Assembly: GCA_015179125.1 (NCBI GenBank)
Contig: WHVA01000322.1
Coordinates: 62,001-126,000, forward strand
Reading direction: 5' to 3'
DNA from: Gautieria morchelliformis
Lineage: Eukaryota; Basidiomycota; Agaricomycetes; Gomphales; Gomphaceae
DNA: 64,000 nucleotides
In this document: piece by piece, positions 20,567 through 57,241 of the stretch
Layout: each line of letters starts with the position of its first letter
Position numbering within the stretch: position 1 is the first letter of the stretch
Notes under the pieces: model-generated
What the model saw: only the letters and a program-made list of their open reading frames with translations
What the model was told of the DNA's origin: nothing
Database searches by the model: none
Position numbers and translations under genes: made by a program

Positions 20567-20693
20567 TGTTGAACCTTATTCGTGTACTAGCCAATAGACC
20601 CGTGCTTCGCACCGGGTTAGTTAAGTAAGGTTAACATCTCACAGGGGTAGTCAATAGTATTACAGAATTATTTGGTGAAATGAAACTACATAT

Positions 20694-20921
20694 TTAATCA
20701 GGCTTTAGCAGCACCTGTTTGTATACAATATTAGATGTTGTGTTCCCTTCCCTAAAGAACATGGACTCTGTTACAATTAGTGCAACATAAAACTGTCCAT
20801 GTGAAAATACTGCATATCGCAAGTCAATTCCTACTGTGGCCCTGCGCTGCACACCAGGATGTGGCACAGCACTGGGTAGGGACTGCCAGGGACCCATTGG
20901 ATGTGAATGCACTGGGACCAC
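20694..20921 (-). pseudogene. Helitron helicase C-terminal remnant
   Basis: GIDLRYAVFSHGQFYVAL … NTTSNIVYKQVLLKPD corresponds to the last PIF1-helicase motif and tail of Helitron 3 (GLDLRYPVFGHGQLYVGVS … NTTNIVYKDVLL). The rest of the Rep-helicase is missing. It sits close to the 3' terminus, as expected for an internally deleted Helitron. Confidence 0.75.
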
Positions 20922-21049
20922 TGCTAGGGTGGATACCTGTGGCTAGGTCAAACACATTGGGTAAATAAAACTTGGGATAAGTAAAATTATTTGGATAAGT
21001 AAAACACATCTTATCACAATTGAAAGTAGCTCTAAGTAATGCATCAGGG

Positions 21050-22120
21050 TAGATAATGTCTCCACCCATTTCTCCCATGTCTGTGTGCCCCTCATGGGTA
21101 GCATGTCCCTATGTATGGCATGTGTTCCCGGAGTGTAGTGTGTCCTGCAAGTATAGTGTGCGTAGCATGTGTTATGACTGTGCATTTCCGACTTCCAACA
21201 CTCAGTTCCACTCACATTCCAACCTTCTGATAATTCCAACATGACACCAATTGTTTTATTCCTTTGTTCTTTCGACTCTATTACTCGAACCCACCGGACT
21301 CGCCTCGCAGCACAGCAAGACCATCTGTCCGGCCCCTTTGGAGTCTCATTGTTTCTTTATCTCAGATATACTTTCCGACCCCTTGTTCTTTTGCCATCGT
21401 TCTACCCTACCCTGCACTCCCCTTGTAGTCCCCTTGTTCCCAATTAGTTAATTATCCTGTATGTCTATCTGACTTCCGCTCCCTCCAGAATTTGCTTAGT
21501 ACCACACCATTACATGTTGTCTCAGCTCTTTGTATAAAAGCCCCTCATGTATGCTCATTATTCTGCAATCAGATAATTGCCTTCGATATGTGATTTCCTT
21601 CGCTGTATCTCCTGTTCTTAGCACAGTGAGTTTTGCAAGACCTCTGTCTCTCCGCCTCCCACCTTCCACCTTCTGACTCAGTTTCCGACTCAAGTTCTGA
21701 CTTCTGTTTAGTTCGATACATTCCGACTTCTGACTCATGATCCGAAATACTTAGGACGATAGTTCATTGGGGGTGCAACATATAAGTTGAAGCTGTTGTC
21801 CTTTCTAGTTCCAACTTGTGGAAATCTTGATACATACCAGCATGTCACCATGCATAGCATGTCCCCCAAGTGTAGCATGTTCCCCATGTGTAGTGTGTTC
21901 CCCATGTGTAAAGTGTCCCCCATGTGTAGTGTGTCTCCCAAGTATATCATATGTATTATGTCCCTTGTGTGTAGCATGTCCCCATGTGTAGCATATCCCC
22001 CATGCATAGCATGTCCCCAAGTATATCATGTGTAGCATGTCCCTTGAGTGTAGCATGTCACCCAAGTATAGTGTGCATAGCATGTCCCTTGTTTGTAGTA
22101 TGTCCCCATATGTAATATAA
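21050..22120. repeat. TGTAGCATGTCCCC minisatellite in Helitron 1, split by an LTR-like block
   Basis: Short units of about 18-20 bp (TGTAGCATGTCCC, TGTAGTGTGTTCCCC) lie at 21,060-21,180 and 21,840-22,120. Between them (about 21,230-21,780) is a sequence homologous to the LTR-like family D block of Helitron 2, ending GGGGGTGCAACA|TATAAGTTG. The repetitive open frames are not taken as genes. Confidence 0.65.
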
Positions 22121-22399
22121 CTCTAAGAGCCTAAAAGCGAACTTATTGTAGGTGCAGAGAAAATAAATAAATGTTAGAGGGTTTACAATGGATAATAGAG
22201 AAATAGACTTATCTTTTGCAAGCAGAGGCTGTTGTCATTAATTTTTAGCAAAGTCAAAGAAATTTTTTGATATCTATTTTGACAAATATACAGTATATAT
22301 ATACATAAAAAAAAATAAAAAAAAAAATAACATAACAATTAAAAAAAAGAGAATATGATCCTAATAAATATAAAAAAGAAGCAGATATGAGAGCAAGAA

Positions 22400-23580
22400 A
22401 CATACCACTTGCAACCATGACACACAGGAATGGTGGGAGCTCTGAACCTGCGCTAGAAAAAAAATAAAAATAAAAAAAGAGGATAAAAAGTGAAAAATTG
22501 TTGCAAGACAGAAAAAAACACAGACCTGAGGCAGTGATAATGATCAAGAAAGGTGGGAGGCAATAAGAGAAGCAGATTAGGCTGGAAAGAAATCAAAAAG
22601 TGGTTAAAAAAGCGAAAATGTTGGTAGAAATACCATGGAGAGAAGCTGATCCTAATAAATGTCAAAACAACACAAATATGATAGCAGGACACACCAGATG
22701 CAGCAATAGCAGACAGGAAAGGTGGGAAGCACTGAGAGGAGGAACCTGGGCTGAAAATATGGCAAAAAGAGGATAAAAAAGCGAAAATTAGTGGAAGAAA
22801 TGACAGATATGATAAGGAAAGAACACACAGGAGGCAGTAGTGATGTCCAAGAAAGGTGGAGGCTGTAGGAGGAGAACGCGTAAGCCAGGGGCAAACCGCG
22901 TCACCCCGTGTCACCCCATTGTGACATATATGCGCAGTTTCATTGTTCCACTTGTTATTGTCCTATGTGCCTATTGTAGTTCAGATTCCACTGTTCTTCT
23001 TTACTATAAAGTAGGTAGCTAGAAGCCCTTCTTCCTCAGTACTTTGCACTTGCGCAACTACTGAGGTAAGATATTCGGTATATTTCTCATGTTCATTTTA
23101 CTTATACGCTTGTATAGAATACTCGCATAGGTAACCTTATTGAGTACTTTGCACTCGCGCAACTACTGAGAATACTCGCATAGATAAATATATTTATAAC
23201 CAAAGTCTTACAGAGGCAATCAGAGGAGCAACCTAAGCTGAAAAGAAGTCAAAAAGCGATTAAAAAAGCGAAAATTATAGCAAGAAATAGCAATATTTAC
23301 CATGGAGAGAAGCTGATTCTAATAAATATCAAACCAGGATAGCAAGACACATACCAGATGCAGCAATATCAGACAGGCAAGGTGGGAGGCATTGAGAGAG
23401 GGGCTGAAAAGAAGACAAAAAGGGGATAAAAAAGCGAAATTTATTGGAAGAAATGATAGTTATGATAGGAAAAAACACACCAGAGCCAGTAATTACCATC
23501 CAGAAAGGTGGGAGGCAATGAGAGGAGCAGCCTAGGGTGAAAAGAAGTGAAAAGAGGATAAAAAAGCGAAAATATTAACA
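22400..23580. repeat. ~150-300-bp tandem array in Helitron 1
   Basis: Recurrent blocks are ATCCTAATAAAT, GAAAGGTGGGAGGCA, GAAGTCAAAAAG, GGATAAAAAAGCGAAAAT and TACCATGGAGAGAAGCTGAT, in the same order in successive units. The array was split by the solo LTR at 22,864. Confidence 0.65.
22864..23212 (+). mobile_element. solo LTR of the Copia family (349 bp)
   Basis: It starts TGTAGGAGGAGAACGCGTAA, ends AGTCTTACA, with exact target duplication GAGGC (22859-22863, 23213-23217). It matches the LTRs of the complete Copia at 51,663-57,241 and contains the 53-bp GT…AG segment (23131-23183) that the 3' LTR there also has. It inserted after the Helitron 1 array formed. Confidence 0.9.
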
Positions 23581-23629
23581 ATAGTTACGTGAGGGGGCTG
23601 TAGAGAGATAGACAGCCCTAATAACAGAC

Positions 23630-23800
23630 ACAGAGAGAGCCAGACACAGAGAGAGCTAGTAGCAGACAGAGAGAGCCAGCAGCAGACAAAGATCCAGCAG
23701 CAGACACAGAGATCCAGCAGCAGACACAGAGATCCAGCAGCAGAACAGATCCAGCAGCAGACAGACAGATCCAGCAGGCACAGAGACAGTGGGCAGGAGA
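23630..23800. repeat. CCAGCAGCAGACA short tandem repeat
   Basis: About six to eight units of AGAGATCCAGCAGCAGACAC and shorter variants. Similar GACAGCAGACAG repeats occur near the 5' side of Helitron 2 (26,980-27,070), so it is a shared Helitron component. Confidence 0.6.
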
Positions 23801-24407
23801 TCCAGAGGTTGCCAGCAGTTGAGCCAGAGGAAATGCCAACAGGAGGATTGAGGGAAGGTGGGTGCGCGCACAGTAGTGTTGGACGCAAACAGGTCACATG
23901 ACCAGAAACACTGCTTGGTCGCTCGCGGCTGCGCCGCTCGCGTTCAAACTCAGCAAATTACATAACATTATTATGTAAAACACCCACAACCACCCTCCCA
24001 GCAACTTTATACTATAGACTAGGTGGATACCCGCGCTTCGCGCGGGGGTGCAAGTCAAACGCCTCGGTAAGGTCAAACACATCAGCAAAGTCAAACACCT
24101 TGGGTAAATCAAACTTGGGATAAGTCAAACACATTCAGATAAGTAAAATGCATCTTATTGATTAAAAGTAGCTCTAAGTAACACATTGAGGTAGGTAATG
24201 TTATGACCATGCTGCTTGACCAACTCTGGTACCTCTGCACCTCCTCTGACTCTATTCCGCAATGTCCACACTTCGACCTTTTGATCTCCTTGTTCTTTCC
24301 TATTCACATACTTCCCCTTATGACTCTATTCACCAGCCTTCCTTACTTAACCCTTAACATAGCAATTCCGGAGCATCAGGAGTTCCATTTGTTCCGCTAT
24401 CAATTCC

Positions 24408-24800
24408 CTAGGTGGGTACCCACACTTCGCATGGGGGTGCAAGTCAAATGCATCGGTAAGGTCAAACGCATTGGGTGAATCAAACTTGGGATAAGTCAAA
24501 CACATTCGGATAAGAAAATTTCATTCAGATAAGTAAAACCCTTCTTATTGATTGAAAGTAACTCTAAATAACACATCAAGGTAGGTATTGTTATGACCAT
24601 GCTCAACCAACTCCGGTACCCCCGCACCTCTGACTCTATTCCACAATGTCTGCACTTCAACCTTGTGATCCCCTTGTTCTTCACATATTTCCCCTAATGA
24701 CTCTTTTCACCAGCATTCCATACTTGACCCTCAGCACAGCAAGTCCAGAGCGTCAGGAGTTCCATTTGTTCCGCTACCAATTAGACCCTTGGTCTCTTGC
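24408..24800 (-). repeat. second, older copy of the Helitron 3' terminus inside Helitron 2
   Basis: CTAGGTGGGTACCCACACTTCG followed by GGGGGTGCAAGTCAAATGC repeats, with divergence, the terminus at 24,019-24,407 for about 390 bp, including the TGTTATGACCATGCT… block. The hairpin is weakened here. It looks like a tandem terminal duplication or an earlier Helitron end. Confidence 0.6.
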
Positions 24801-25181
24801 CTATTGTTCTTAGTTCTACACTGCACCCCCTTGTAGTTCCTCTTGTTTCGCATTAGGTACTTTTATTCTAGTTACTTGCACTGGAATTGCTTACCTCTAC
24901 CTTCTGACATGTTGTCTCAGCTCTTTGTATAAAACCCAGTCATGTGTGCCTCTGTTCAGCAATCAGATAATCGACTTTGATATGTCACTCCCTTTGCACT
25001 GTCTCCGGTTCTTAGACCTGCAAGGCCTCTGTCTCTCTGACCTCCGTCTTCCAACTTGATTTCTCATATCCAACTTAACTCAATTCTTGAACCCTTACTA
25101 CTTCAGTTACAATACTCAACCTCTTCCAACTTCCAATCTCAGATCTCCAAAATACTTAGGATGATAGTTGGGGGTGCAACA
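24590..25181 (+). mobile_element. LTR-like block, family D
   Basis: It starts TGTTATGACCATGCT and ends GGGGGTGCAACA, with CTCAGCTCTTTGTATAAAA (a TATA-type promoter box) and CAATCAGATAATCGACTT. Homologues are at about 21,230-21,780 and 49,353-49,805. TG…CA ends and the promoter box suggest an LTR. No target duplication was seen and it occurs as part of the Helitrons. Confidence 0.5.
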
Positions 25182-25229
25182 TATAAGTTGGAGCTGCAGT
25201 CCTTTTAGATCCAAACCTGATACATAACA

Positions 25230-26095
25230 GGTAATGACTCTACACATTTCTCCCATGTCTCATGTCCCCTACCTCACATGTAGTGTGTCCTTGCCTGTAG
25301 TGTGTCATCACACTTTATCTGTCCTCACACGTATTGCATCCTCACATGTGGCATGTCCCCACACGTAGTGTGCGTAGTGTGTCTCCACATGTAGCATGTC
25401 TCCATATGTAGTGTGTCCCCACATGCAGTACAGTGTGCATGGCATGTCCCACATGCATAACATGTCCCTCAAGTATTCTGTGTGTAGCATGTCCCTGGTT
25501 TGTAGCATGTGCCCAAACATAGCGTGTCCCTAAATTATAGCATGTGTGTCCCCCATGCATAGCGTGTCCACATGTGTAGCATGTCCCTACATGTAGTGTG
25601 TGTAGCGTGTCCCCCAAGTATAGCTTGTGTAGAATGTCCCTTGTTTGTAGTGTTTTCCCCTGTAGTGTGTCCCTTGTTTGTACCATGTCCCCAAGCATAG
25701 TGTGTCCCCACATATAGTGTGCACATCCCCATGCATAGCATGTGTGTCCCCATGCATAACATGCGTGTCTCCACGCATAACATGAGTGTCCCCAAGTATA
25801 GTGTGTGTGTCTCCACGCATAACATGGGTGTCCCCAAGCATAGTGTGCGTGTCCCCAAGCATAGCGTGCGTGTCCCCAAGCATAGTGTGCGTGTCCCCAC
25901 GCATAACATGAGTGTCTCCATGCATACCATGAGTGTCTCCACACATAGCATGCGTGTCCCCAAGCATAGCATGTGTGTCGCATCCCATGCATGTCTCCAC
26001 GCATATGCGTGTCCCCATGCATAGTGTGTGTAGCATGCCCCTCAAGTATAGCATGCATAGCATGTCCCAATGGCATGTGTAGCATATCCCCAAGG
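25230..26095. repeat. long CATAGCATGTCCCC minisatellite in Helitron 2
   Basis: About 40 units of 18-24 bp (CATAGCGTGCGTGTCCCCAAG, TGTAGCATGTCCC). The minus strand reads as a 256-residue repetitive frame (GDTHAMLGDTHAM…). The frame stays open because the units favour multiples of three, but nothing else points to a gene. Confidence 0.75.
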
Positions 26096-26199
26096 GCCTC
26101 AAAGTGAAGCAAGCAGAGGCTGTTACTACTTATTAACTTTTAGCAAGCTCAGGGACATGTATCAATATCTATTGTGTGACATATACAGACATAAATAAA

Positions 26200-26500
26200 A
26201 TAGTCAAGGAATCTATATTTAAGCAGCTCCTGTCATTAATTTTTAGCAAAGTCAGGATTATCTATTTTTCGAAAAAATGTCAAGAAAATGTCCAGTACAT
26301 GTAAGCTGAAGCTGTTATTAATTTTAGCAAAGTTAGGATTATCTATTTTTCGAAAAATGTCAAGAAAATGCACTGTACATTTAACCTGGAGCTGTTGTCA
26401 ATTTTCACAAAGTCAGGATAATTTATTGATATCTATTTGCGAAAAAATGTCAAAAAAGTACAGTACATTGAAGCAGAAGCTGTTATTAATGCCCAGCCAA
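26200..26500. repeat. ~85-bp tandem repeat in Helitron 2
   Basis: Three to four units share GCTGTTATTAATTTTAGCAAAG, TCAGGATTATCTATTTT and GAAAAAATGTCAA. Related units occur in Helitron 1 (22,230-22,270) and Helitron 3 (33,110-33,330), which ties the three units to one lineage. Confidence 0.6.
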
Positions 26501-27169
26501 AGCCAGAGAAGCCCAGAGACTGACAGAGAAACCCAGAGCCCAGCCAAAGCCATAGTAAGCCAGCCACCAGTATAGCCAGAGAGGAGTGGCTGGTAAGCAG
26601 CTTTACAGTAAATAAAACAATAAAACAAACCACATTTAAAAGCAGAATCTATTGTCATTAATTTTAGAGGGAACTTATTGATGTCTATTTTCGAAAAAAC
26701 CCTGAAAAATATTGATATTAAAATACTTTTTTTTCAGCAGTCTTTGGATTTTATTTAAATCTATTTTCGAAAAAAATAACAAAAATATAAAGCACATGTG
26801 AATGCAATATGATAAAAAAAAACGAACCAATAAAATTATAAACACAAATCAAATAAAATACATTGGAATGCATTAAAAAAGAGATATTACTTACCAATTA
26901 CCAATAGATAGCCAGCCAAGCCAATAGATAGTCAGCCAACCAAAGCCATAGACAGCCAGCCAGCTAAAGGAGGAGACAGCAGACAGAGCTGACAGCAGAC
27001 AGCACCCAGATCAGACAGAGCACAGAGCACAGAGCACAGGGCACAGAGCACATAGCGGACAGCAGACAGAGGAATTGCCGGTTGGGCAGGTTCCTGGCGT
27101 TATGTCCTTACCGTTCGGCCTTTATACCGTGCGCGCGTGTCGTGCACGGACCACACTCGCGTATGCGCG

Positions 27170-27390
27170 CTCTGGTCACGAACGGGTCACGTGACCACTG
27201 CGCAGCGTTCTCTCGCGGATGCGCCGCTCGCCGCTGACCTAATTTGGAATGCAAACGGTCACGTGACCATGCTGCGCAGCGTTCTTGGCTCGCGGCTGCA
27301 CCGCTCGCGCGCTCCGCTGACAAACTAATGACCAAGCATTGGTCAGCATTTGTCAGCGCGCCCACAACCTCCCACCTAGGCGCTTTCATA
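27170..27390 (-). promoter_or_regulatory. Helitron 5' subterminal palindrome cluster
   Basis: Two perfect GGTCACGTGACC palindromes (27185-27196, 27257-27268) are each followed within four bases by a CTGCGCAGCG block. GC inverted repeats (GCGGCTGCACCGC and relatives) lie between. The same set is at 33,880-33,985 in Helitron 3. These may be protein-binding or replication-start structures of the Helitron 5' end; CACGTG is also the core of bHLH factor sites. Confidence 0.45.
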
Positions 27391-30300
27391 TAGTGTAACT
27401 AGGTGGATACCCGCGCTTCGCGCGGGGGTGCAAGTCAAACGCCTCGGTAAGGTCAAATGCATCAGTAAGTCTAACACATCGGTAAGCCTAACATATCATG
27501 AAGGTCAAGTGCATTGGGGAAAATCAAAGCAATCAATTTGCATCAAGTAGATATCAGAAATCAAGGAGCTCTAAGTAATACATCTTTATATACAATGTTG
27601 GTTGTGTTCAAACCCTCCTCAAGCAAGACCTTCACTTTGTTCCAGCTTGTTCCCCTTGAAACACCAACATACAACTGACCATGTCCAAACACTGGATATC
27701 TCAGGTCCAGCCCAACCGTACCCAAAGACTGTCCCTGAGACTTGTTGATGGTCATTGCAAATGCCACACGCACTGGAAACTGTCTCCTCTGCAGCACAAA
27801 TGGTAATTCCCCCTCTGATGGTGAAATGGTGATCCTGGGGATGAAAGCAGTATTTCCTGCACGTGGACCTGAGATGATCCTGACCTCCAACACTCTATTC
27901 CTCATCCTCACCAACCGCAACCTTGTCCATTGCATAGTCCTTGCTTCTTATCCAAATTGCGCAACATCATCAGAGGCACTCCAGGCTTGACTTCCAAGTG
28001 AGCAGGAGGAAGACTGCCCATCTCTATGGAATTCAGATACTCCACAGGATACTGCTCTGCAAAGTCGGTTTCCTTGACAGAATCTGCACAGTGGAAGACC
28101 TGAGCATCACCTGGAAACTGCCTCAACACCATGGAATTGATCTCATTGACCTCAATATTTCTGGGACAGAGGATGGCCCGCTCTAAAAAATAATTGTCCT
28201 GGGCAGGGATTGCATTGCCAATGCCATGGTATATTTCCTGGATCAGCTCTGCAATTCCAGGGCCACAAACCAAGTGTTGAGGGAGTGAGAACGTATGATC
28301 TAGTGGGAGATCCTTTCCCTGACCCACATTCTGCAGCCATTCTGCAAACCGGGCTCTGTCAGGGTCATTTCTCACCCGCATGTTCTCTGTCAGATGGACG
28401 ACCTTGATCTTTGGCCACAGATATGACTTCTGAAGGGTAGCTCCCACGATATCCTCCTTGGAGCCTTTAGGGACAATTGGGAGAGTCTGCTGAAAGTCAC
28501 CTCCAAAGGCGACCGTGATGCCACCAAAGGGTCTGTCAGGCTGGTCAAGGAAATCCCTCAGTGTCCTGTCAATGGCCTCTACGGCATGGCGATGCTGCAT
28601 TGCAGCCTCATCCCAAATGATGAGCCTGGCCAGTCTCAGCATATCAGCCTGGTCAGAGTTCTTTTTGATGGAGGAGAGAGAGCCCTCATGGACAGGAATT
28701 GGAATTCCAAGCATGCTGTGAGAGGTTGTCCCATTAGTGAGGATAAGTGCAGCCATTGCAGATGAGGCTACAGCAAGCACAATGAGACTCTCCGCTCTAC
28801 AGGAGTGGATTAGGGTGTTCCATGTGAATGATTTCCCAGCGCCCCCTGATCCAGTGACGAAAAACATTTGTCCATTAGGTTTCCCCTGAGCATCTATGTC
28901 CAGTGCCGACCGTAATATCTGATCATGCGCAGACCTTTGCCCCTCATTCAGCTTGGGAACCTCCTCATCAGCCATCTGCCTCTCTTGAACAGGGTCATAG
29001 TCCCTCTGCTCAGCTATGAACCTGTTTCCAATCAGGACCTCCCACTCGCCTACCACCCGAGGCATATCATCAAAGCTGCTCAAGGACATTCCATTACGCT
29101 GAAGGAGTTTATCCAAGAGAAAGAGGCCAAAATCATAGACCTGATCATCCCGTGGCTCCTGGATATTGTGTCTGACTTGGAGCCGATGTCTGAGATCATC
29201 ACATATGTGCTCCTTGAAGGCGTCCCATAGTCTGTCAGGCTGTGAGGGAATGCAATGACCAAGGATGGTGGCAAAGAGATGTCTGAGCTGAGCGCCTGTT
29301 TTCATGCCACTGGCTTCCTGGAGACACAACCTCCACTCCTGATCATCCTCCAGAAGTCCCCTGGCAAGACAGGCCTCCTTGTAAGTAGCACATTGTATGC
29401 CATCCACCGTCCTAAGCTCCTCAAAGGATCTGGCCCCCTTGACCACCGTGAGGAGAGTGCGCAAATAAAATCTCTCTCCTGATTTTGGGCTTGCAAAGTG
29501 AAGGCGTCCAATGCTATATCCCCTTTGACGTGGTGTCCATACCCTTCCCTCTTTTTGCCAGGTAAAATGCTCAGGAAAATCCACATAGAGCACATCGCGT
29601 GCATGAGGGTAGGCAGCATTGGCCTCAAAGTAAGCCATGAGCGCTGTCTTTGACCCCTCAACCCTGTTCATGATGGTGAGCGGATCAGCATCAGGATTGA
29701 AAACGACTGATTGCTGGTCTTTTTCATGGACTGGCAGTGCCATGACTGCAGGCACCTGGGTGTGGATTTCCCGCTCCAGCAACCTCCAACAGGCCTCATG
29801 AGCACTGACATAGCGAGCGTCCAGGTACTTCTTTATCTCATCATGGTTGACACCGAACTCCATCGTGGTCCGATCGTGGCCCTTGTATAGATACTTGTGG
29901 ATATACTTGACGCACCTCACACTGAAGGTGAATTCAAGGTTGATGTGACACCGGAGTTTGAGCAAGAGCAGAGCAGAGTATGGCACAACCCATCTGTTGT
30001 CCAGCATGTGACCTCTGACATTGTGCAGCCTTCCATCATTGCGACGACGATATTTTGGATATCCATCTACATTCACAATGGTCTCCTCACAGAATGGCTT
30101 TGGGAAGCCTTTCTTGCACTTGCCATTTTCCATGCAGGGTGCGTTTGGATTCATTTGTCCACAGGGACCATGTGTCATCAGCTCACAGACCAACTGGTAG
30201 AGGACAGGATGTGTCTCTGGATCAGGGAACTCTGCTGAAATCATAGAATCCACCTCATGTGGATGTTTGACCTTGGACTCCCTATCGAACCAGGTAAGCA

Positions 30301-32232
30301 GGTGCATGTGTGGGAGCCCCCTCTTCTGGAATTCAATAGTGTGAACGCAAGCGACAGTTTCTCCAAAGATCCTGTCCTTGACGATCAAGTCAATGAGGTA
30401 TTTCTTTTTGAGGTGAAACACCCGCGACACCAGGTCAGGTCTGTCCTGAGCAGTTTGTCCAGGGAGCAACTCGGCCACTATCTCATCCCACTTTGGATTG
30501 GCAGTCATGGTAATAAATAAATCAGGGGACCCTTCTTTGTTGTAATGGCCAGGGAGTTCTGGCAGTTTTGATTCATGTCCCGTGTACTTCCTTGAAATGT
30601 CGCAGGCAGAATGACTTTTATGCCCAAGCTGTTTGCATCTCCAATGTCATTGTCCAAGCCTCCATATGAATCTACCATCTGGTTATACTGCTCAGCACAC
30701 AGAGTGTGTTGATTGGCCCTGATCCACCTCAGTCTGCTTTGGTCTGCAGCAGCCCAGGAGTCTACAATGTACTGCTGGAACAATTTGCCACCACGCAGGA
30801 GTGTTGTAGGTTCTCTCTCTCTCTGGAACAGACGATATGCATGGTACTGTATTTGGGTGACCTGTCTCCGTCTGTTTGGATTGGGATTGGCCTGCCGAGC
30901 ACGCTCTGGCTCATGATAAGGAATACCTGGTTCCCATCCCAACTCTCCCTTGGGAAAGAGCAAGACATAGTGCAGCGAGGCATAGTTTGCATTGGTATCC
31001 AATACCCTTCTGAAAGGTCCACCTCTGAGCTGGACAATAATATCCCTAGGTCCAGGGTCGATGCCATCTCCAGGAAGAACGACTGCAATCTCATCTGCAG
31101 TTGGGACATTATATCTCCTAGGATCCCTGTGTGCCCTGTACGTGAGCCTTGCCTGGATGTCACCATTCTGTTCTTGAGCTCTGAGCCTCTCAGCTGCTTG
31201 TTTATATGTGCGCACATGAGGATTGCATAGCAGGAGCATTTCCTGCAAGTCTCCCATGATAGTTGGAGACAGACGCTCGTTACGATTTTTTCTCTTTGCC
31301 AAAGCCAGTGCAGGATCATATATGTAAAGCTGGGCATACTTTGGATCGTCTTCATTGTCAGGGAGGAGAGAGCCATGGAGATGATACAGTTCACCCTGTA
31401 GCTTGAGGACATATGGACCACGACCCTCCCGAAGCAAATCTTGGTCAAAGTCGGCCCCCACAGAAGTGAATGCAAATGCAGCATTATACTGCCTGATATT
31501 CTGGCGAAATCCTTTTGCCTCAGGGTCCTGGCCTTCTAAGAGCTGTTTCAATGGCTGAGGGGGCTCTGGCAGGTCTTCCAGCTGCACCTTTACTTCCATA
31601 CAGCAATCACCAAATCTGGGCCGCACATTTGAGGATTTCTGCAGACGTTCTTCCCTCCAGTGTAATGCTCCACAGTCAGGGCAGGGAATAACCATGGGAC
31701 CCAAATCATGACGCTGGACATCTGCCTCAATTATTCTAGAGCGACCAAGTGGAAGAGGAGGAGGAGGTCGCTGAGGACGCTGCTGAGGTACAGGGAGCGG
31801 CTGAGGAGGTGCAGGGAGCAGCTGAGGAGGTTCAGGGAGTGGCTGGGGAGGCTGAGGAGGTGCAGGGAGCGGCTGAGGAGGTGCAGGGAGTCGCTGAAGA
31901 GGCCGCAAAAGTGCAGGGAGTAGCGGCGGCATTGGTCTTATTGCATTGGCCTGAGCACGCAATGCTGCCACTCCTGCAGAACCTACTACAGGAGGTCTAG
32001 GAGCTGGTTGTACAGGTGCTTGCCTGTGTCTTCCCAAGGGCTGTGCTGGGATAGGCTGTATCCCAGCAGCCTGAGCACGCAAATCTGCCACCGCTGTAGA
32101 GCCTACCACTGGATGTCAAATTCCAGCTGCCTGAGCACGCAACTGAGCAATAGCCGCTGAACCTGAACCTACTACGGGAGCAGGCTGTACAGGGTCTGGC
32201 CTATTTCTTCTCAGGGGCTGTAATGGTGGGAT

Positions 32233-32720
32233 TGTTAGCAACTAGGGGCTATGGCAGGGAAGGTTCGGTAGAGTTCTTAGAAAGCTAGAATCAAATATAC
32301 TCTCTCAGTGAATTTATTGTCACTGATGTATTAATACAATACCTAGAATCAAATATACTACATGATTTTCAGTCAACATGCTATGTAAATATGAAAGATA
32401 CTACTCGCCTCTCTCAGTGAATTTATTGTCACTGAGAGAGGAGTGTAATCCTGTCTCAGAAGGCATATACTTGCACCCGGCCCTTTAGCGCCCAAGGGCT
32501 CGCGCGTCGAAGTCGTTTCAAACTCCGCTGGGTGCAGCCGCCTGTGAAAGTAGAAATAACAGAATGAAATGGAGAGATAGAGAGTGACTAGAAAATTTCG
32601 AAAATAAGCAGAGAAATGGATGCATGGTACAAGAACAGTATGAGAAAATATTGAAACACCACACAATAAATTGAATATATTATGCTTGATTTTGGTGCAG
32701 GAGCATAAATGCACCCAACA
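32233..32720 (+). mobile_element. solo LTR, family F (488 bp)
   Basis: It starts TGTTAGCAACTAGGGGC and ends CACCCAACA, with target duplication GGGAT (32228-32232, 32721-32725). It contains two copies of a hairpin, CTCAGTGAATTTATTGTCAC…, near 32,302 and 32,406, the same design as in family G. It interrupts the N-terminal coding part of the Helitron 3 Rep-helicase. The superfamily is not assigned. Confidence 0.85.
32472..32536 (-). other. tRNA-like 65-nt segment inside LTR F
   Basis: The ends pair perfectly over seven bases (TGCACCC / GGGTGCA). CCCT…AGGG could form a D-like arm and a GTTTGAAAC block resembles a T-loop/B-box region. It is too short for a tRNA and no anticodon arm can be drawn with confidence. 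Possibly a decayed tRNA piece taken up by the LTR, or coincidence. Confidence 0.2.
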
Positions 32721-33107
32721 GGGATAACTGCTAACTGTGCACAAAGGGCTGCCACCTGCTCTCCAGGACTGAGATTAGGAGGACGCGATGGTCCTGCAAG
32801 CATAGGAGGACGTGATGGCCCGGCCACAGGTTGTTGAAAAGGATCAGCGACATTGCTTCTAGGAGGAGGGTGGGGGATGGCAAAAGGCTGTGGTGGAGGG
32901 GGTGGCTGGTCCTGAGCTCTGACAGCAGCAGCAGCAAGTGCACGCGCTCTCCGATCAGTGGGCGACGTCATATGACCCTCCTGCTCCTCCCTCGCCCTTT
33001 CACGCTCCTGCTGACGATTTCTCTCTGGAGTAGATGGATCCCTGAGAAATGCAGGCATAAGCTTAGGGGAACAATCAAGCTACCACAATTCAACTTACAT
33101 TTGCAAG

Positions 33108-33350
33108 CAGATGCAGCTGTTGTTAATTTTTCTTGGGCAAAGTCAGGGGAATTTATTAATTTCTAATTAAAATAAAATAAATAAATGTCAGATGGCTCAC
33201 ACCAGAGCACAGAGAAATATATACGTACCAAGGATGGGACTGAGAATTTGTTTGTTAGGCAAAGTCAAGGGAATTTATGATTTTCTATTTAAAATAAAAT
33301 AAATGTCAGATGGCTCACAGCAGACCAAAGAGAAATATATACGTACCAAG
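33108..33350. repeat. ~125-bp tandem duplication in Helitron 3
   Basis: Two units share GCAAAGTCA(A/G)GGGAATTTAT, AAATAAATGTCAGATGGCTC and GAGAAATATATACGTACCAA. The first part is related to the ~85-bp repeat of Helitron 2. Confidence 0.6.
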
Positions 33351-34128
33351 GAAGGGACGGGGAAATTGTTTGATGAAAATATCCAAGTCTTCTTCGGCTA
33401 TCCAACTGGAATAATTCCAGTAAAAGGTCTTGGTCCTGGTCCTGGTCCTGGTCCTGGTCCTGGGGAGATGTCTTCTTCAGCCACCAGTAGTGCAAGCCAA
33501 CACTAAGAGAACTGCAATGCAATTGTGGCTCCCTCTAAGGCAGCCTGGGATGACTACCTGGCTCCTTAGCAGAGAAAAAGCTGCCCCACTGAAGAGGTCA
33601 ACCCCAATAGTTCACTGCAGAGATCTCCCTGGGAAGAGATCTTTTGTGTTCTACACTATAATCTTTTGTGTTCTACACTATAATCTTTTGTGTTCTACGC
33701 TATATAGGCTATCTATTAATTCACTCTCACGCAATTTTATTCTATCTAGTGGGCAGAGAGGAGAGGAGGGTGGTGGTGGAGTGCGCAGACGCGGCTGCAC
33801 AGCGTTCTGCCAGCGCGTTCTGCCAGCTCAGCGCAGGGTTGAGCGCTGGAGCCGGAAGATCGGCGTGAACCGCCAGGAGCTCGCGGCTGCGCCGCTCGCA
33901 CTCCAGGTTCACGCCGGTCTGCCGGTCACGTGACCGCTGCGCAGCGTTGGTGCTTGCAGCTGCGCTGCTCGCCGCTGACATAAGTTTTACGTAATATTAT
34001 TTATAAGCGGCGCCCACAACCTCCCACCGTGCTACTTTCACCTATAGGAATGCCATTGTTCTCCTGCTCTCTTATACATCCACGACGCGCCGTCCTCATC
34101 CGCTTTCTACGACATCACACTGCCCTTC

Positions 34129-51662: not shown

Positions 51663-54600
51663 TGTGAGAGGAGAACGCGTAAGCCAGGGGCAAACCGCGT
51701 CACCCCGTGTCACCCCATTGTGACTCAATATGCGCCGCAGTCTCATTGTTCCACTCATCTATTGTTCTACGTGCCTATTATAGTTTAGTTCCCATTGTTC
51801 TTCTACACTATATATTAGGTAGCTAGAAGCCACTCTTCCCTCAGTACTTTGCACTCGCGCAACTACTGAGGTAAGATATTCGGCATATTTCTCATGTTCA
51901 CTTTACTTATACGCATGTATAGATTATTCCCATAGATATATATATATATATTTATAACCAAGTCTTACAGGTTATTGGGCCCCGCATATATCCCACTACT
52001 AGCTCGTTCCACGCCGCTCCTGCTCTGCAATGTCCACTACGACCCTCACCACAACAGACCTTCTCCCTTCCTCTGTCCCAAAACTCCTTGCTAATGGCCT
52101 GAACTGGATTGCCTTTTCGATGGGCTTCCAGGACGCTGTCGAAGCAAAAGGATTATGGGGCCATTTCGATGGCACCACAACCCAGCCAATCGTCAGCACT
52201 CCACCTACAACCGACGAGGAGGAAGCCCTTACCAAATGGGTCAAGGACGATCGAACAGCGAAGGCCCTTCTTACTCACCGAATCCCCGACTCCACTCTCA
52301 TACGTGTACATGGCAAACCATCGCTGAAAGATCGTTGGGACCTCATAGTAACAGAATTCTCATCGAAGGGTGCGTTTGCACAGGCTGACTTGCATTCTCA
52401 CTTCATGGAGTCGAAGTGCCCGGACAGAGGAAATGTCCGCGAATTCCTTGACGGTCTGCGTGTCAAAAAGGAGGAATTAGCAACCTTCGGAGTCGACATT
52501 GAAGAAAAAGATTACCGCTCTACAATAATAAAATCCCTCCCACCTCACCTCTCTGCCTTCGCATCAAACCTATTGGCAGGCACCAAGCTATACAGTTCGA
52601 CCAAGACTATCGACCCTGACGAACTCATCACGTTAGTGTCAGAAGAGCATGAGTGACATGCCGCTCACAAGTCTCGTCGCTCTGGGCATGCCAATGGAAA
52701 AGGTGAAGAAAAGGACGAAGCTATGTTTGTAGCCGGAAATGGGAAAGGGAAGAAATTTGAGCGCAAACCGAAGGGAACTTGCTGGAATTGCGGAGACAAA
52801 GGACACTATAAAAATAAGTGTCCTAAACCTGATAAAGCGACAGGTGACAAGAAGCACGACTCACCTAGAGGTGTGGGCTCTGCCAATGTCGCTGTGGAAT
52901 CCGATGATGAAGACGATGCTGCTTTCTTCGCCGATTACGACTCAGATGACGAGCTACCTCAACTGCTGACAAACTGCGAGTCTGACTCAGATGAGGACTG
53001 TGCAGGCGATTGGTTTTCTGAAGTCGACGATGACCTAGAAAATGATCGCAAGAGCAAGGAGTTGCCCATAGCTGACGAAAGTGATACCTGTTCACTTGTC
53101 AGCGTTGATCAGGAGGATGCACATGCAGTATGTGCAGAGGTCAACAGTGCAGCAGAAAACTCACCTCAGACCGAAGTCTACAACTCCGGATGCACAAGAC
53201 ACATAACGCCATACCGAGATGCAGTGACAAGTTATACCCCCATACCGCCAAAATCCTTCCAAGCTGCAAACAGAAAGAATTTCAACGCAGTCGGGACGGG
53301 TGAGATGAAAATTGACGTACCAAATGGAACTACGACATCTCAGCTTAATCTAACTGAGGTCTTGTACTCACCTGATGTCAGGTACACTCTTGTATCAATC
53401 GGACGGCTCGATGATGCTGGTTTCGCCGTATCATTTGCAGATGGCAAATGTGTCATACGGGATCAAGACGATCAGCTTGTTGGCACGGTCCTAAAAACCG
53501 GACATGGCCTCTACCACATTTCACATGAGCAGGAAACAGCGAACTCAGCCGAGGATGTGCTTACCCTGGACCAATTCCATCGAAGAATGGGTCATATTTC
53601 TCCTGAAATAGCCAGGAGATTAGTTACAAAGGGCTTTGTAACTGGAGTAAAGCTTGAAACCTTACCGTCAGGCGACCCCTTTTTTTGCGAATCCTGCGTA
53701 TATGCAAAAGCCACACGGAAACAGTTCCCAAAGATCAGGGATGGCACAAGAGCCACGGCGTTTGGACAAGAAGTCCACAGCAATCTATGGGGACCGGCTC
53801 CAGTCACCACAAAAGCCGGGAAGTGTTACTATATCATGTTTACGGATGATATGACGCGTTTGACTCACCTTTATCTGCTGCGCTCCAAAGACGAGGCATT
53901 TAGTGCCTACAAGGAGTATGAGTCATGATGTGACGCGCAGCTGAAGGCTCGTGTCAAAACGCTCCACTCGGACAGAGGCGGTGAATATCTGGGAAAAGAA
54001 TTCACAGTTCATTTGAAGTCGAAAGGAACCACACAAAAACTTACCATGCATGACACACCCCAGCAAAACGGCGTGGCCGAACGACGCAACCGCACGATAG
54101 TTGAACGTGTACGAGCCCTGCTCCACGCAAGTGGGCTTCCAAGGTTTCTGTGGGGCGAGGCGGCTCGGCATGTTGTCTGGCTGATGAACCGTACCACGAC
54201 TAAAGCAGTCGATGGCAAGACCCCGCACGAAGCTGCCTTCGGTGACAAACCGAACCTTAAGCACGTTCGTGAATGGGGGGAAAGAGTGTGGATATGCACT
54301 GAAGGGGGCGACAAACTCGGCGGTCGAGTGTCTGAAGGCCGCTGGATAGGGGTTGATGAAAGGAGTAAGGGTTTCCGAATTTATTGGCCTGAAAAGAAAT
54401 CTGTCACAGTGGAACGCAACGTCCACTTCGACAACAGCTCTGCATCAGTGTCAGGGGACACCCTGTTTTCCATTTCCAGTTCCGACACCACACCCAGTTC
54501 CGACTCCATTTCCGACTCCGCTTCCGGTTCCGATTCCATCTCCGCATCCGCTTTCGGGAACAATTCCGCTTCTGGGAGAACTTCCCCCAGTTCCGTTCGC

Positions 54601-57241
54601 CTTGCCAGTTCCACTCCAATTTCCGACTTCCGCCCCGGAACAGTGTTGGAAATCAAGCGACTCGCATAATAGGTGGCATCAAGGGTCGATCAAGGGTCAG
54701 GGGGATGCAGGGTTGATGGCGGGTGCCAAGCGTTGTCCCTGGCTGCGCAGCGTAGTATAATACGGGCTCGCTGACATTGGGGGTCCTTAGACTTTTCTCT
54801 TTGGATTTCCCCTTGTCAGGTGAGAACCCCCTCTCTTGTATGCTCTGTTCATTTATACATACTTTGGATTTCCCCTTGTCAGTTGTGTGGTAGTGTGATC
54901 TCCACGACTAGCCAGGGTTGCCCTTACAATCAGCTTCTCGCCTCGAGGGGGAGAACTGGCAAATAATCGAGACAGAAACTAACGCACCAGTAAACAAAAA
55001 CCCCTCCCCCAATGCACCGATACCCAATGCCCCGTCTGTGCCCCACACCAGCGAACCCCAGTCCGACTCCGATGCCGAGGCACCTGCCAAACGTCTGCGA
55101 AAGCCCAGTCAGCGTATTAGAGACATCCTCGAAGCGCACGGAACGTCGTCTCACCGATCATCAGATCCTGCCATACCACAAGGAGTTCAACTGCCCTCCA
55201 TCTCAGAAAAGGATACACTGGAAGGGGAAGGAACCGCTGAGTGGATGCTTATCACTGATGAAGTGGACGGGTACGTACTGGTAGCAGAGACAAGCGAGGT
55301 CGAAGCAATCGAACCTCGATCCCTGGCTGAGGCAAGACGATGCCCTGACTGGCACCTATGGGAGACTGCCATTCATGAAGAATTAGCGGTACTCCGTGAT
55401 GCCGGGACTTGGAGACTCACTGAGGCCCCTAACGGTGCAAACATCGTCGGGTCAAAATGGGTTTTTCGAGCAAAGAAGGACGCTGCAGGAAACATAGTCA
55501 GATATAAAGCCCGCCTTGTTGCGCAGGGCTTCTCACAGGTACCTGGCGTCGACTACTTCGACATGTTTGCCCCCGTAGTAAAACTAGCTTCGATTCGGAC
55601 GGTACTGGCTTTGGCGGCTGCGAACGACATGGAGCTTCATCAGATCGATATTAAGGGTGCATACCTGAACGGTGAACTCACTGAAAAAGAAACAATATAC
55701 ATGTCTCAACCACCAGGGTATCCTGTGCCAAGCTCCTCGGGGAAAGTATGTCTCCTGCAAAAGACGTTGTACGGGTTAAAACAATCCGGTCGCTGTTGGT
55801 ACCAAAAACTTGTTGACATTATGCTCACCAAGTTACTCTTCTCCCGCTGCGACGTAGATCAGGCCATTTTCTTTCGACGCACAAACAATGCACTCACGAT
55901 CATCCTGGTACACGTGGACGATTGCACTATTGCTGCAACGTCAGAGATAGCGGTAAAGCAATTCAAGGCTGGAATCTCGAAGCATGTCGAAATCACTGAC
56001 CTCAGCGAGCTGCATTGGCTATTAGGCATCGAAATAAAACAGGACAGAGAAAGACGAACCATACACCTCTCACAGCGATCCTACATAGAGTCAATTATAC
56101 GAAGGTATAATTTCGAAGATCTCAAACCTGTATCGATGCCGATGGACCGTGGCCTACTCCTCTCCATGTCGCCAACCCCTAAGACCACGGCCGAATGGGC
56201 TAAAATGCGAGACATACCTTATAGAGAGGCTGTTGGATCGCTCATGTACGCCGCCCTTGGAACCTGCCCTGACATCGCCTTCGCCGTACAAGCCGTATCC
56301 AGGTATTCGACCAAGTTCGCCCCCGGTCACTGGAGTGCAGTCAAACGGATCTTTCAGTACCTGAAAGGTTCTATGAACCTATGACTGACTTACAGTCATA
56401 CGAAAAATGAGTTGATTGGGTACGCTGACGCCGATGGCAGTATGGCCGAAGATAGGCACGCAATCTTGGGATACGTGTTCATCATCAATGGAGGAGCTGT
56501 ATCCTGGAGCGCAAAGCGTCAGTCAATAGTATCCCTTTCCACAACGGAAAGCGAATACGTAGCTGCTGCACACGCCGCGAAAGAAGCCCTGTGGCTTCGG
56601 TCACTGATCCAGCAACTTTTCAACAAAAAGATGTTACCCACAACGTTGTTTTCCGATAATCAATCCGCCATCGCACTCGCTAAAGATCATCAGTACCACG
56701 CCAGAACAAAACACATTGACGTACGATATCATTTCATTCGGTGGATTATTGAGAAAGGCGCGATTCGTTTGGTTTATTGCCCTACCAACGACATGGTAGC
56801 AGACACGCTTACTAAAGCGTTGCCATCTGCGAAAGTGAAACATTTTGCGGTTGAGCTCGGGTTGACCACGGTTTGAGGGGGAGTGTGAGAGGAGAACGCG
56901 TAAGCCAGGGGCAAACCGCGTCACCCCGTGTCACCCCATTGTGACTCAATATGCGCTGCAGTCTCATTGTTCCACTCATCTATTGTTCTACATGCCTATT
57001 GTAGTTTAGTTCCCATTGTTCTTCTACACTATATATTAGGTAGCTAGAAGCCACTCTTCCCTCAGTACTTTGCACTCGCACAACTACTGAGGTAAGATAT
57101 TCAGCATATTTCTCATGTTCACTTTACTTATACGCATGTATAGATTATTCCCATAGGTGAACTTATATAGTACTTTGCACTCACGCAACTACTGAGATTA
57201 TTCCCATAGATATATATATATATTTATAACCAAGTCTTACA
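51663..57241 (+). mobile_element. Copia (Ty1) LTR retrotransposon, two LTRs, with a nested solo LTR
   Basis: 5' LTR 51,663-51,969 and 3' LTR 56,884-57,241 start TGTGAGAGGAGAACGCG and end GTCTTACA. Target duplication AACCC lies at 51658-51662 and 57242-57246. The primer site GGTTATTGGGCCCC follows the 5' LTR; a GAGGGGGAG polypurine tract precedes the 3' LTR. Coding order fits Copia: gag with CCHC knuckle (CWNCGDKGHYKNKCP), protease region, GAG-pre-integrase and integrase (PQQNGVAERRNRTIVE), reverse transcriptase (about 55.4-56.1 kb, HVDDC) and RNase H (about 56.4-56.9 kb). It is broken at about four places besides the nested LTR at 54,449. The LTRs are near-identical apart from a 53-bp segment present only in the 3' one, so it is young. 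Confidence 0.92.
54449..54928 (+). mobile_element. solo LTR, family E (480 bp), inside the Copia
   Basis: It starts TGTCAGGGGACACCC and ends GGTTGCCCTTACA, with target duplication ATCAG (54444-54448, 54929-54933). It lies between the integrase and reverse transcriptase parts of the Copia and is therefore the youngest layer of this nest. Nearly identical to 40,973-41,466. Confidence 0.93.

Follow-up and report, generated by a model that had tools for sequence, protein, structure and literature searches.

Helitrons of one family of Gautieria morchelliformis seem mostly to insert with base precision, and in a single orientation, at the 5' end of an older relative, forming trains. The window (the whole 64,000-nt stretch of DNA analysed) is part of contig C363 of a 122 Mb assembly made of 1,113 contigs, and carries one such train of three elements. 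This array was probably built by serial insertion between a host A and the initial T of a resident 5' end, a target favoured through a strand-specific transposase nick, as made at the element's own origin. Helitron, copia-like and F-box domains were all detected in the window, which has thus a eukaryotic content.

Three head-to-tail Helitrons run on the minus strand from 34050 to 20587, in a 13.46-kb block (Table 1). The units, numbered from the 3' side, measure 3,432, 3,380 and 6,652 bp, differ in content, and abut with zero spare bases at both internal joins, where ...CTATAGA is followed by CTAG between 24018 and 24019 (units 1/2), and ...GTGTAA by CTAG between 27398 and 27399 (units 2/3). 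An earlier note, made from the letters of the window, had described three separate Helitrons abutting at exact termini, an observation that is confirmed to the base. It had also placed the 3' ends correctly: they begin at plus-strand positions 20587, 24019 and 27399, are each preceded by A, and consist on the minus strand of a GC hairpin, about 11 nt, and CTAG. The 3' end of unit 1 (CTAGCCAATAGACCCGTGC), referred to as type B, is related to, yet distinct from, that of units 2 and 3, referred to as type A. At the opposite side, the 5' block attributed to all three units is indeed shared (GGTTGTGGG on the minus strand, about 25–30 nt inside), and a minus-strand TC start is found in unit 1 only. 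By type, 5' ends start with TC (T1, and T4 as in unit 1), TTAC (T2, as in unit 2) or TTCC (T3, as in unit 3). The first T of T3 could be a host T, making a TC start possible; T2 is without that option. Unit 3 is outermost, its 5' end is free, and its terminus, ...TATAGGAA at 34050, is followed by T.

Other traits are those of canonical Helitrons. Rep (HUH, two tyrosines) is fused with a PIF1-type helicase in unit 3, where domain matches include Helitron_like_N, split over two ORFs (2e-17 and 1.2e-24), and PIF1 (7.9e-66). PHMH and YIHKYLYKGHD are present in the translation of the second ORF, and we take them to be the HxH and the two-tyrosine motif of the transposase. Neither unit 1 nor unit 2 matched the unit 3 transposase (RepHel). 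All three 3' ends have the CTRR form (CTAG), with the hairpin 11 nt inside. Insertion took place between A and T with no target duplication, as A precedes all of the 140 3' ends read in the genome (100 of type A, 40 of type B).

Table 1. Features of the Helitron array, in positions of the window
Feature	Position	Strand	Folding
Unit 1, non-autonomous Helitron, array base; 3' end of type B, 5' end of type T4 (TCTATAGTATAAAG...)	20587..24018	-	
Unit 2, non-autonomous Helitron; 3' end of type A, on unit 1 5' end; 5' end of type T2 (TTACACTATATGAAAG...)	24019..27398	-	
Unit 3, transposase-carrying Helitron; 3' end of type A, on unit 2 5' end; 5' end of type T3 (TTCCTATAGGTGAAAG...)	27399..34050	-	
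Unit 1 type B right terminal sequence, hairpin then CTAG	20587..20623	-	-6.5 kcal/mol, z -2.04
Unit 2 type A right terminal sequence, 7-bp GC hairpin + 11 nt + CTAG	24019..24055	-	-9.6 kcal/mol, z -3.23
Unit 3 type A right terminal sequence, 37 nt identical to that of unit 2	27399..27435	-	z -3.23
Unit 1 left terminal sequence (T4), landing site of unit 2	23983..24018	-	
Unit 2 left terminal sequence (T2), landing site of unit 3	27361..27398	-	
Unit 3 left terminal sequence (T3), free; host T adjoins	34013..34050	-	
Host A, left side of single target site	20586	.	
Host T, right side of target site, partner of host A 20586	34051	.	
First ORF of unit 3 transposase, N-terminal part of Rep (Helitron_like_N)	30505..32109	-	
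Second ORF of unit 3 transposase, remaining Rep + PIF1 helicase; frame-shifted relative to first ORF	27908..30508	-	

When joined, the sequences on either side of the array make up a single site, as the earlier note had supposed. Eight other places of the genome span the join (600 nt, 300 from each flank) at 67–78% identity, uninterrupted by gaps or repeats at the join itself; the paralogous places read A followed by A at this point, the A-T target being that of the window's own flanks only.

The search for other abutting termini was extended to the assembly. The type A 3' end (28 bases, at most 2 mismatches) matched 1,060 times in 122 Mb, and the reversed-pattern control 0 times; the head-to-tail join pattern was found 873 times, and 0 times in the control. 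Chance is excluded by these figures, and an assembly artefact is unlikely, as one base-exact join recurs with differing partners throughout. Among the first 100 exact type A matches in contig order, a non-random sample, 88 lie directly on the 5' end of another Helitron; the 88 seated ends have 68 distinct 60-bp left flanks, hence some are non-independent. The remaining 12 are off any 5' end; two of them, L029 and L149, are nested, oppositely oriented, in another element. The type B 3' end matched 239 times (at most 3 mismatches); among the first 40 read, 4 are on a 5' end (L107, L117, L129, L135), 36 in other DNA. Seating of the two types differs with a Fisher p of about 1e-18, if sites are taken as independent.

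The same picture emerges from the 5' ends, which matched 423 (T1), 172 (T2), 222 (T3) and 134 (T4) times. Among 100 listed ends per type, CTAG follows directly in 79, 76, 64 and 62 cases, respectively (281 of 400 in total), an occupancy somewhat overstated, because the listings demand a non-A base 19 nt beyond the end and some free ends are lost. In 14 further listed ends, counted by eye, CTAG is slightly altered or a few bases off (T1 2, T2 7, T3 3, T4 2). T follows most of the remaining listed ends, also by eye, as an insertion between A and T would predict; in this place a C is found once each in T1 and T2, an A twice in T3, and a G once in T4. Matches to the orientation patterns, which are exact patterns of unequal permissiveness, tail-to-tail being the strictest, amount to 873 head-to-tail, 7 head-to-head and 0 tail-to-tail. 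Head-to-head places are found on contigs C139, C269, C562, C590, C682, C747 and C958, and are base-exact at C269 only.

The constant A before 3' ends and the T after most free 5' ends are both in favor of plain AT targeting, in which Helitrons insert at any A-T step, a 5' end is merely another AT, and the site is regenerated, as put forward for a maize pair in the available text of PMC2267711. This would place a share of about 1.4e-4 (near 1 in 7,000) of the elements on 5' ends, calculated as roughly 1,300 ends over about 9.2 million AT steps scaled from the window, against the 88% found for type A and the 10% found for type B. It would also predict even orientation, because AT is its own complement, against the marked excess of head-to-tail over head-to-head joins. 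The counts contradict plain AT targeting, unless selection purged nearly all other-site and head-to-head insertions, and we regard it as very unlikely. The claim of the earlier note that newcomers are added at the 5' end of an older Helitron is supported. The regenerated AT, which the note had taken as cause, makes landing possible; as sufficient cause it fails, since it gives the wrong rate and no polarity. AT alone being insufficient, the resident 5' end must in addition be recognized in a strand-specific manner. The inference of the note is partly supported, being right in kind and incomplete as to cause.

Newcomer and resident sides were compared at 34 type A junctions, with at most 1.5 kb per side, for a total of 561 pairs, taken as similar when at least 93% identical over at least 700 bp. 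Similar pairs are 66, of which 58 are similar on the newcomer side only, 6 on the left side only, and 2 on both. Both copies are seated on 5' ends, by our own count, in 42 of the 58 newcomer-only pairs; the other 16 involve L013, L014, L015, L024 or L029, none of which is on a 5' end. Newcomers L002, L032 and L033 are 99.3–99.5% identical, and their residents are T4, T1 and T1, respectively; L012 and L025, from a set of newcomers 98–99.5% identical, meet T3 and T1. One and the same 3' type comes after at least four 5' types. Unit 3 adjoins T2, its 97.8% relative on contig C182, denoted U4, adjoins T1, and its 98% relative on contig C202 adjoins T4 (C202:190657). Near-identical newcomers on unrelated residents argue against segmental duplication, concatemers, and one composite element as main source of the joins. 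Simple segmental duplication had been dismissed by the earlier note too, and the outcome that it named against itself, the trio always together with a single outer pair of ends, was not seen.

A few joins may have formed once, and then been copied as larger units by 3'-end read-through or duplication. The two pairs similar on both sides (one, L013/L014, looks allelic or duplicated), the left flank shared by C200:2010 and C200:14744, and the host flank common to some free 5' ends are in line with such an origin. Newcomer-only and left-only pairs largely outnumber them, one 3' type comes after at least four 5' types, and the same neighbors were not found to recur with one outer pair of ends; as main source, this copying of larger units deserves little credence. 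The 13.46-kb array was also used as query, and the 2 candidates scored of 5,533, both relatives of unit 3 (C202, C979), say little on the recurrence frequency of the trio.

A single rolling-circle event could instead lay several head-to-tail copies of one element. Polarity would be explained, as would a short same-end repeat on contig C171, where one left end sequence and CTAG both occur twice in an 898-bp unit (L053), and this is how tandem arrays of bats and plants have been interpreted (PMC5876387, in its available text; the bat view via PMC2267711). Neighbors, however, differ in kind, and are not copies of one another either in the window or in C182. The latter features five consecutive junctions, uninterrupted from 473050 to 492957, and nine junctions on the same strand in the 444.5–493 kb interval, the outer ones known from the listings alone. 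In the comparison of the window with C182 (eight units plus one partial), the closest relatives found sit in different arrays (unit 3–U4, 97.8%; unit 2–U5, 98.0%), and identity is lower between neighbors (U1–U2, about 86–90%; U3–U4, 88%). Concatemers are contradicted as main source also by the identical newcomers on unrelated residents, and are extremely improbable in this role. The pairs similar on both sides and the L053 repeat indicate that duplication or co-mobilization also happens.

An exact head-to-tail join would be produced as well by homologous recombination, if a double-stranded Helitron circle crossed over in the 5' region shared with the resident. Residents do share 5' blocks, and Helraiser is known to form circles in which CTAG is joined precisely to TC (PMC4778049, PMC5876387, as far as their available text goes). 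Recombination predicts that the newcomer's own 5' type comes after CTAG, hence one type per identical newcomer. Against this, L002 has T4 and L032 and L033 have T1, L012 has T3 and L025 has T1, and unit 3, the own 5' end of which is T3, meets a T2 resident, its C182 and C202 relatives meeting other types still. Recombination is hardly credible, and plain AT targeting, copying of larger units, concatemers and recombination have all been set aside as main source of the joins.

Marks of landing are visible at some 5' ends. C78:5122 reads CTCTTAGA, then TAGTGTAA, then CTAG, with a short 5'-end tip between the 5' end of the newcomer and the following sequence. The TAGTGTAA tip is found also at C341:54151 and C269:34474, a TAGA tip at C191:178469, and a TAGGAA tip, once or more, on contigs C152, C188, C334 and C364. 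Such tips are as expected if a newcomer used a second AT, located a few bases further in than the resident terminus, and left the tip outside; slippage is an alternative source of repeated tips.

Sites outside 5' ends were analyzed as a set of 43 host sites, 34 of type B (repeats merged) and 9 of type A; two further type A sites, L147 and L149, lie outside the set. The 12 bases preceding A at the 43 sites are T/A rich and G poor. A 5'-end matrix gives higher scores to these sites than to 235 local control AT steps (p 1.1e-6; complement, p 0.31), and 125 of 1,000 column-permuted matrices perform equally well. In strand and composition, the host sites agree with 5'-end recognition. The likeness to 5' ends may reflect base make-up only; a position-specific likeness was discarded, as base order does no better than column permutation.

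Serial insertion, the reading preferred here, may be described as follows. The newcomer would enter at the step from host A to the resident's initial T, its CTAG 3' end joining the first base of the resident. Its own 5' end would then face the old host A, so that the landing site would be recreated at the new outer 5' end, and the array could grow only there; we infer the growth order of the array accordingly from this geometry. The transposase (HUH, two tyrosines) would recognize left terminal sequences and nick them strand-specifically between A and T, the same nick that would start its own transfer. When the enzyme holds an excised circle, a nick at a resident 5' end could accept the incoming strand, and the circle would enter upstream of the nick, head to tail, at the exact base. 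Origin nick and target nick would thus be one, and this shared-nick mechanism fits every count in the analysis. Type A elements live mostly on 5' ends, and type B elements are mainly inserted in host DNA, where they often form the base of an array.

We lean slightly towards a broader view, in which the lineage is in effect site-specific for its own kind. The transposase would take the nicked left end of any relative, second family included, and newcomers would spare host genes and stack outward one-way, while a sister lineage, differing slightly in its 3' end, would colonize host DNA and supply the bases. If so, arrays would be ordered records of transposition, with the oldest element at the 3' side. 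To our knowledge, target choice of Helitrons beyond AT is poorly known; origin and target being apparently one site in this family, it would offer a direct and testable handle on Helitron integration, a safe harbor occurring naturally in a eukaryotic rolling-circle element, and ordered arrays in which the succession of transposition events could be read. In annotation, units of a train may also be misread as a single large Helitron or as gene capture.

In IS200/IS605 elements, such as IS608, the left-flank cleavage site corresponds to the target site, and integration is oriented and site-specific. The likeness lies in the origin site doubling as target; IS608 has a single-tyrosine enzyme without helicase, and no homology is claimed. 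The site specificity of IS200/IS605 is mentioned in PMC5876387. On the top strand, Helraiser transposase cleaves single-stranded DNA at the border of flank and 5'-TC (PMC4778049), and it forms precise circles (PMC4778049, PMC5876387); for canonical Helitrons of this kind AT is given as target, and the available text of these two papers describes no preference for resident 5' ends. A family living mainly on the 5' ends of other Helitrons would be unusual. In the open-access literature, subscription papers being largely outside the scope of the search, no report was recognized of a family mostly seated on the 5' ends of other Helitrons, and no precedent was found for scale, polarity and family contrast.

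Pleurotus Helitrons cluster in some regions (PMC4289320). FoHeli and Metarhizium Helitrons are likewise fungal and have multiple 5' termini; in Metarhizium three tandem copies were attributed either to 5'-end insertion or to rolling-circle replication, the choice being left open (PMC5148889). In contrast to the present family, ends are non-canonical and cases single in the available text of that paper, while seating on 5' ends is the common state here. Head-to-tail junctions of Myotis Helibat, with perfect joins of CTAG to TC, were interpreted as tandem repeats (Pritham and Feschotte 2007, as relayed in PMC2267711 and PMC5876387); here neighbors are unlike, and identical newcomers are found on unrelated residents. 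Adjacent Helitron pairs and the idea of a regenerated AT are already published for maize. At maize r1, two different Helitrons lie head to tail, and consecutive insertion was proposed with the order left open, one option being a canonical insertion at the AT formed by a host A next to the older element's 5' T (PMC2267711). The available text of that report deals with one pair, whereas the present data concern a family of about 1,060 3' ends, with 88 of 100 copies read seated in this way and polarity counted.

Unit 2, one of the three head-to-tail Helitrons of the window, carries an inner, degenerate copy of the type A 3' end (the type found in units 2 and 3), 389 bp from the real one. The terminal ~386 bp of the unit are present twice, as a duplication, and 21-bp repeats form an array within the same unit. 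An inner 3' end resembling that of unit 2 is found in unit U5 of the Helitron array on contig C182, the closest relative of unit 2 among the units compared. In unit 3 the Rep domain of the transposase is interrupted by a frameshift, at a place which is open in two C182 relatives. The window also hosts copia-like retrotransposon ORFs, featuring Pol_BBD, gag_pre-integrs and RVT_2 domains.

Positions of features in the window and on other contigs
Feature	Location	Strand
Inner type A 3' end, unit 2	window 24408-24431	minus
21-bp repeats, unit 2	window 25681-25995	
Frameshift, unit 3 transposase	window 30505-30508	
Copia-like ORFs	window 52723-56384	+
Inner 3' end, U5	C182:493345	
Paired type A 3' ends (L053)	C171:355965-357263	
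Facing T3 ends	C20:587-656	
Facing T3 ends	C354:83074-83146	

Elsewhere in the genome, the two type A 3' ends at L053 are spaced by 898 bp and both preceded by the same ...CATACCTAGTAA end; this is a short repeat of the same kind and may be a concatemer. Three copies of type B, the related 3' end of unit 1, share the last ~50 bp of the left flank (L111, L121 and L139) and differ farther out, denoting either insertion into a repeat or a Helitron-carrying repeat. Junctions L013 and L014 reside in contigs of about 14.4 kb each (C42 and C43), which match at 99.7-99.9% on either side of one junction, and look like allelic or duplicated contigs within the assembly.

Some 5' ends of the T4 type, found in unit 1, feature a T2-like tip (TTTTCATATAG...) ~35 bp further inward (L107, L117, L065), which looks like the extension of one 5' end by another. 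Among the T3 matches listed, T3 ends (the unit 3 type) are found face to face on C20 and C354, two per place, and all that lies between them is a short stretch with 3'-end-like sequence, an arrangement like a solo 3' end.
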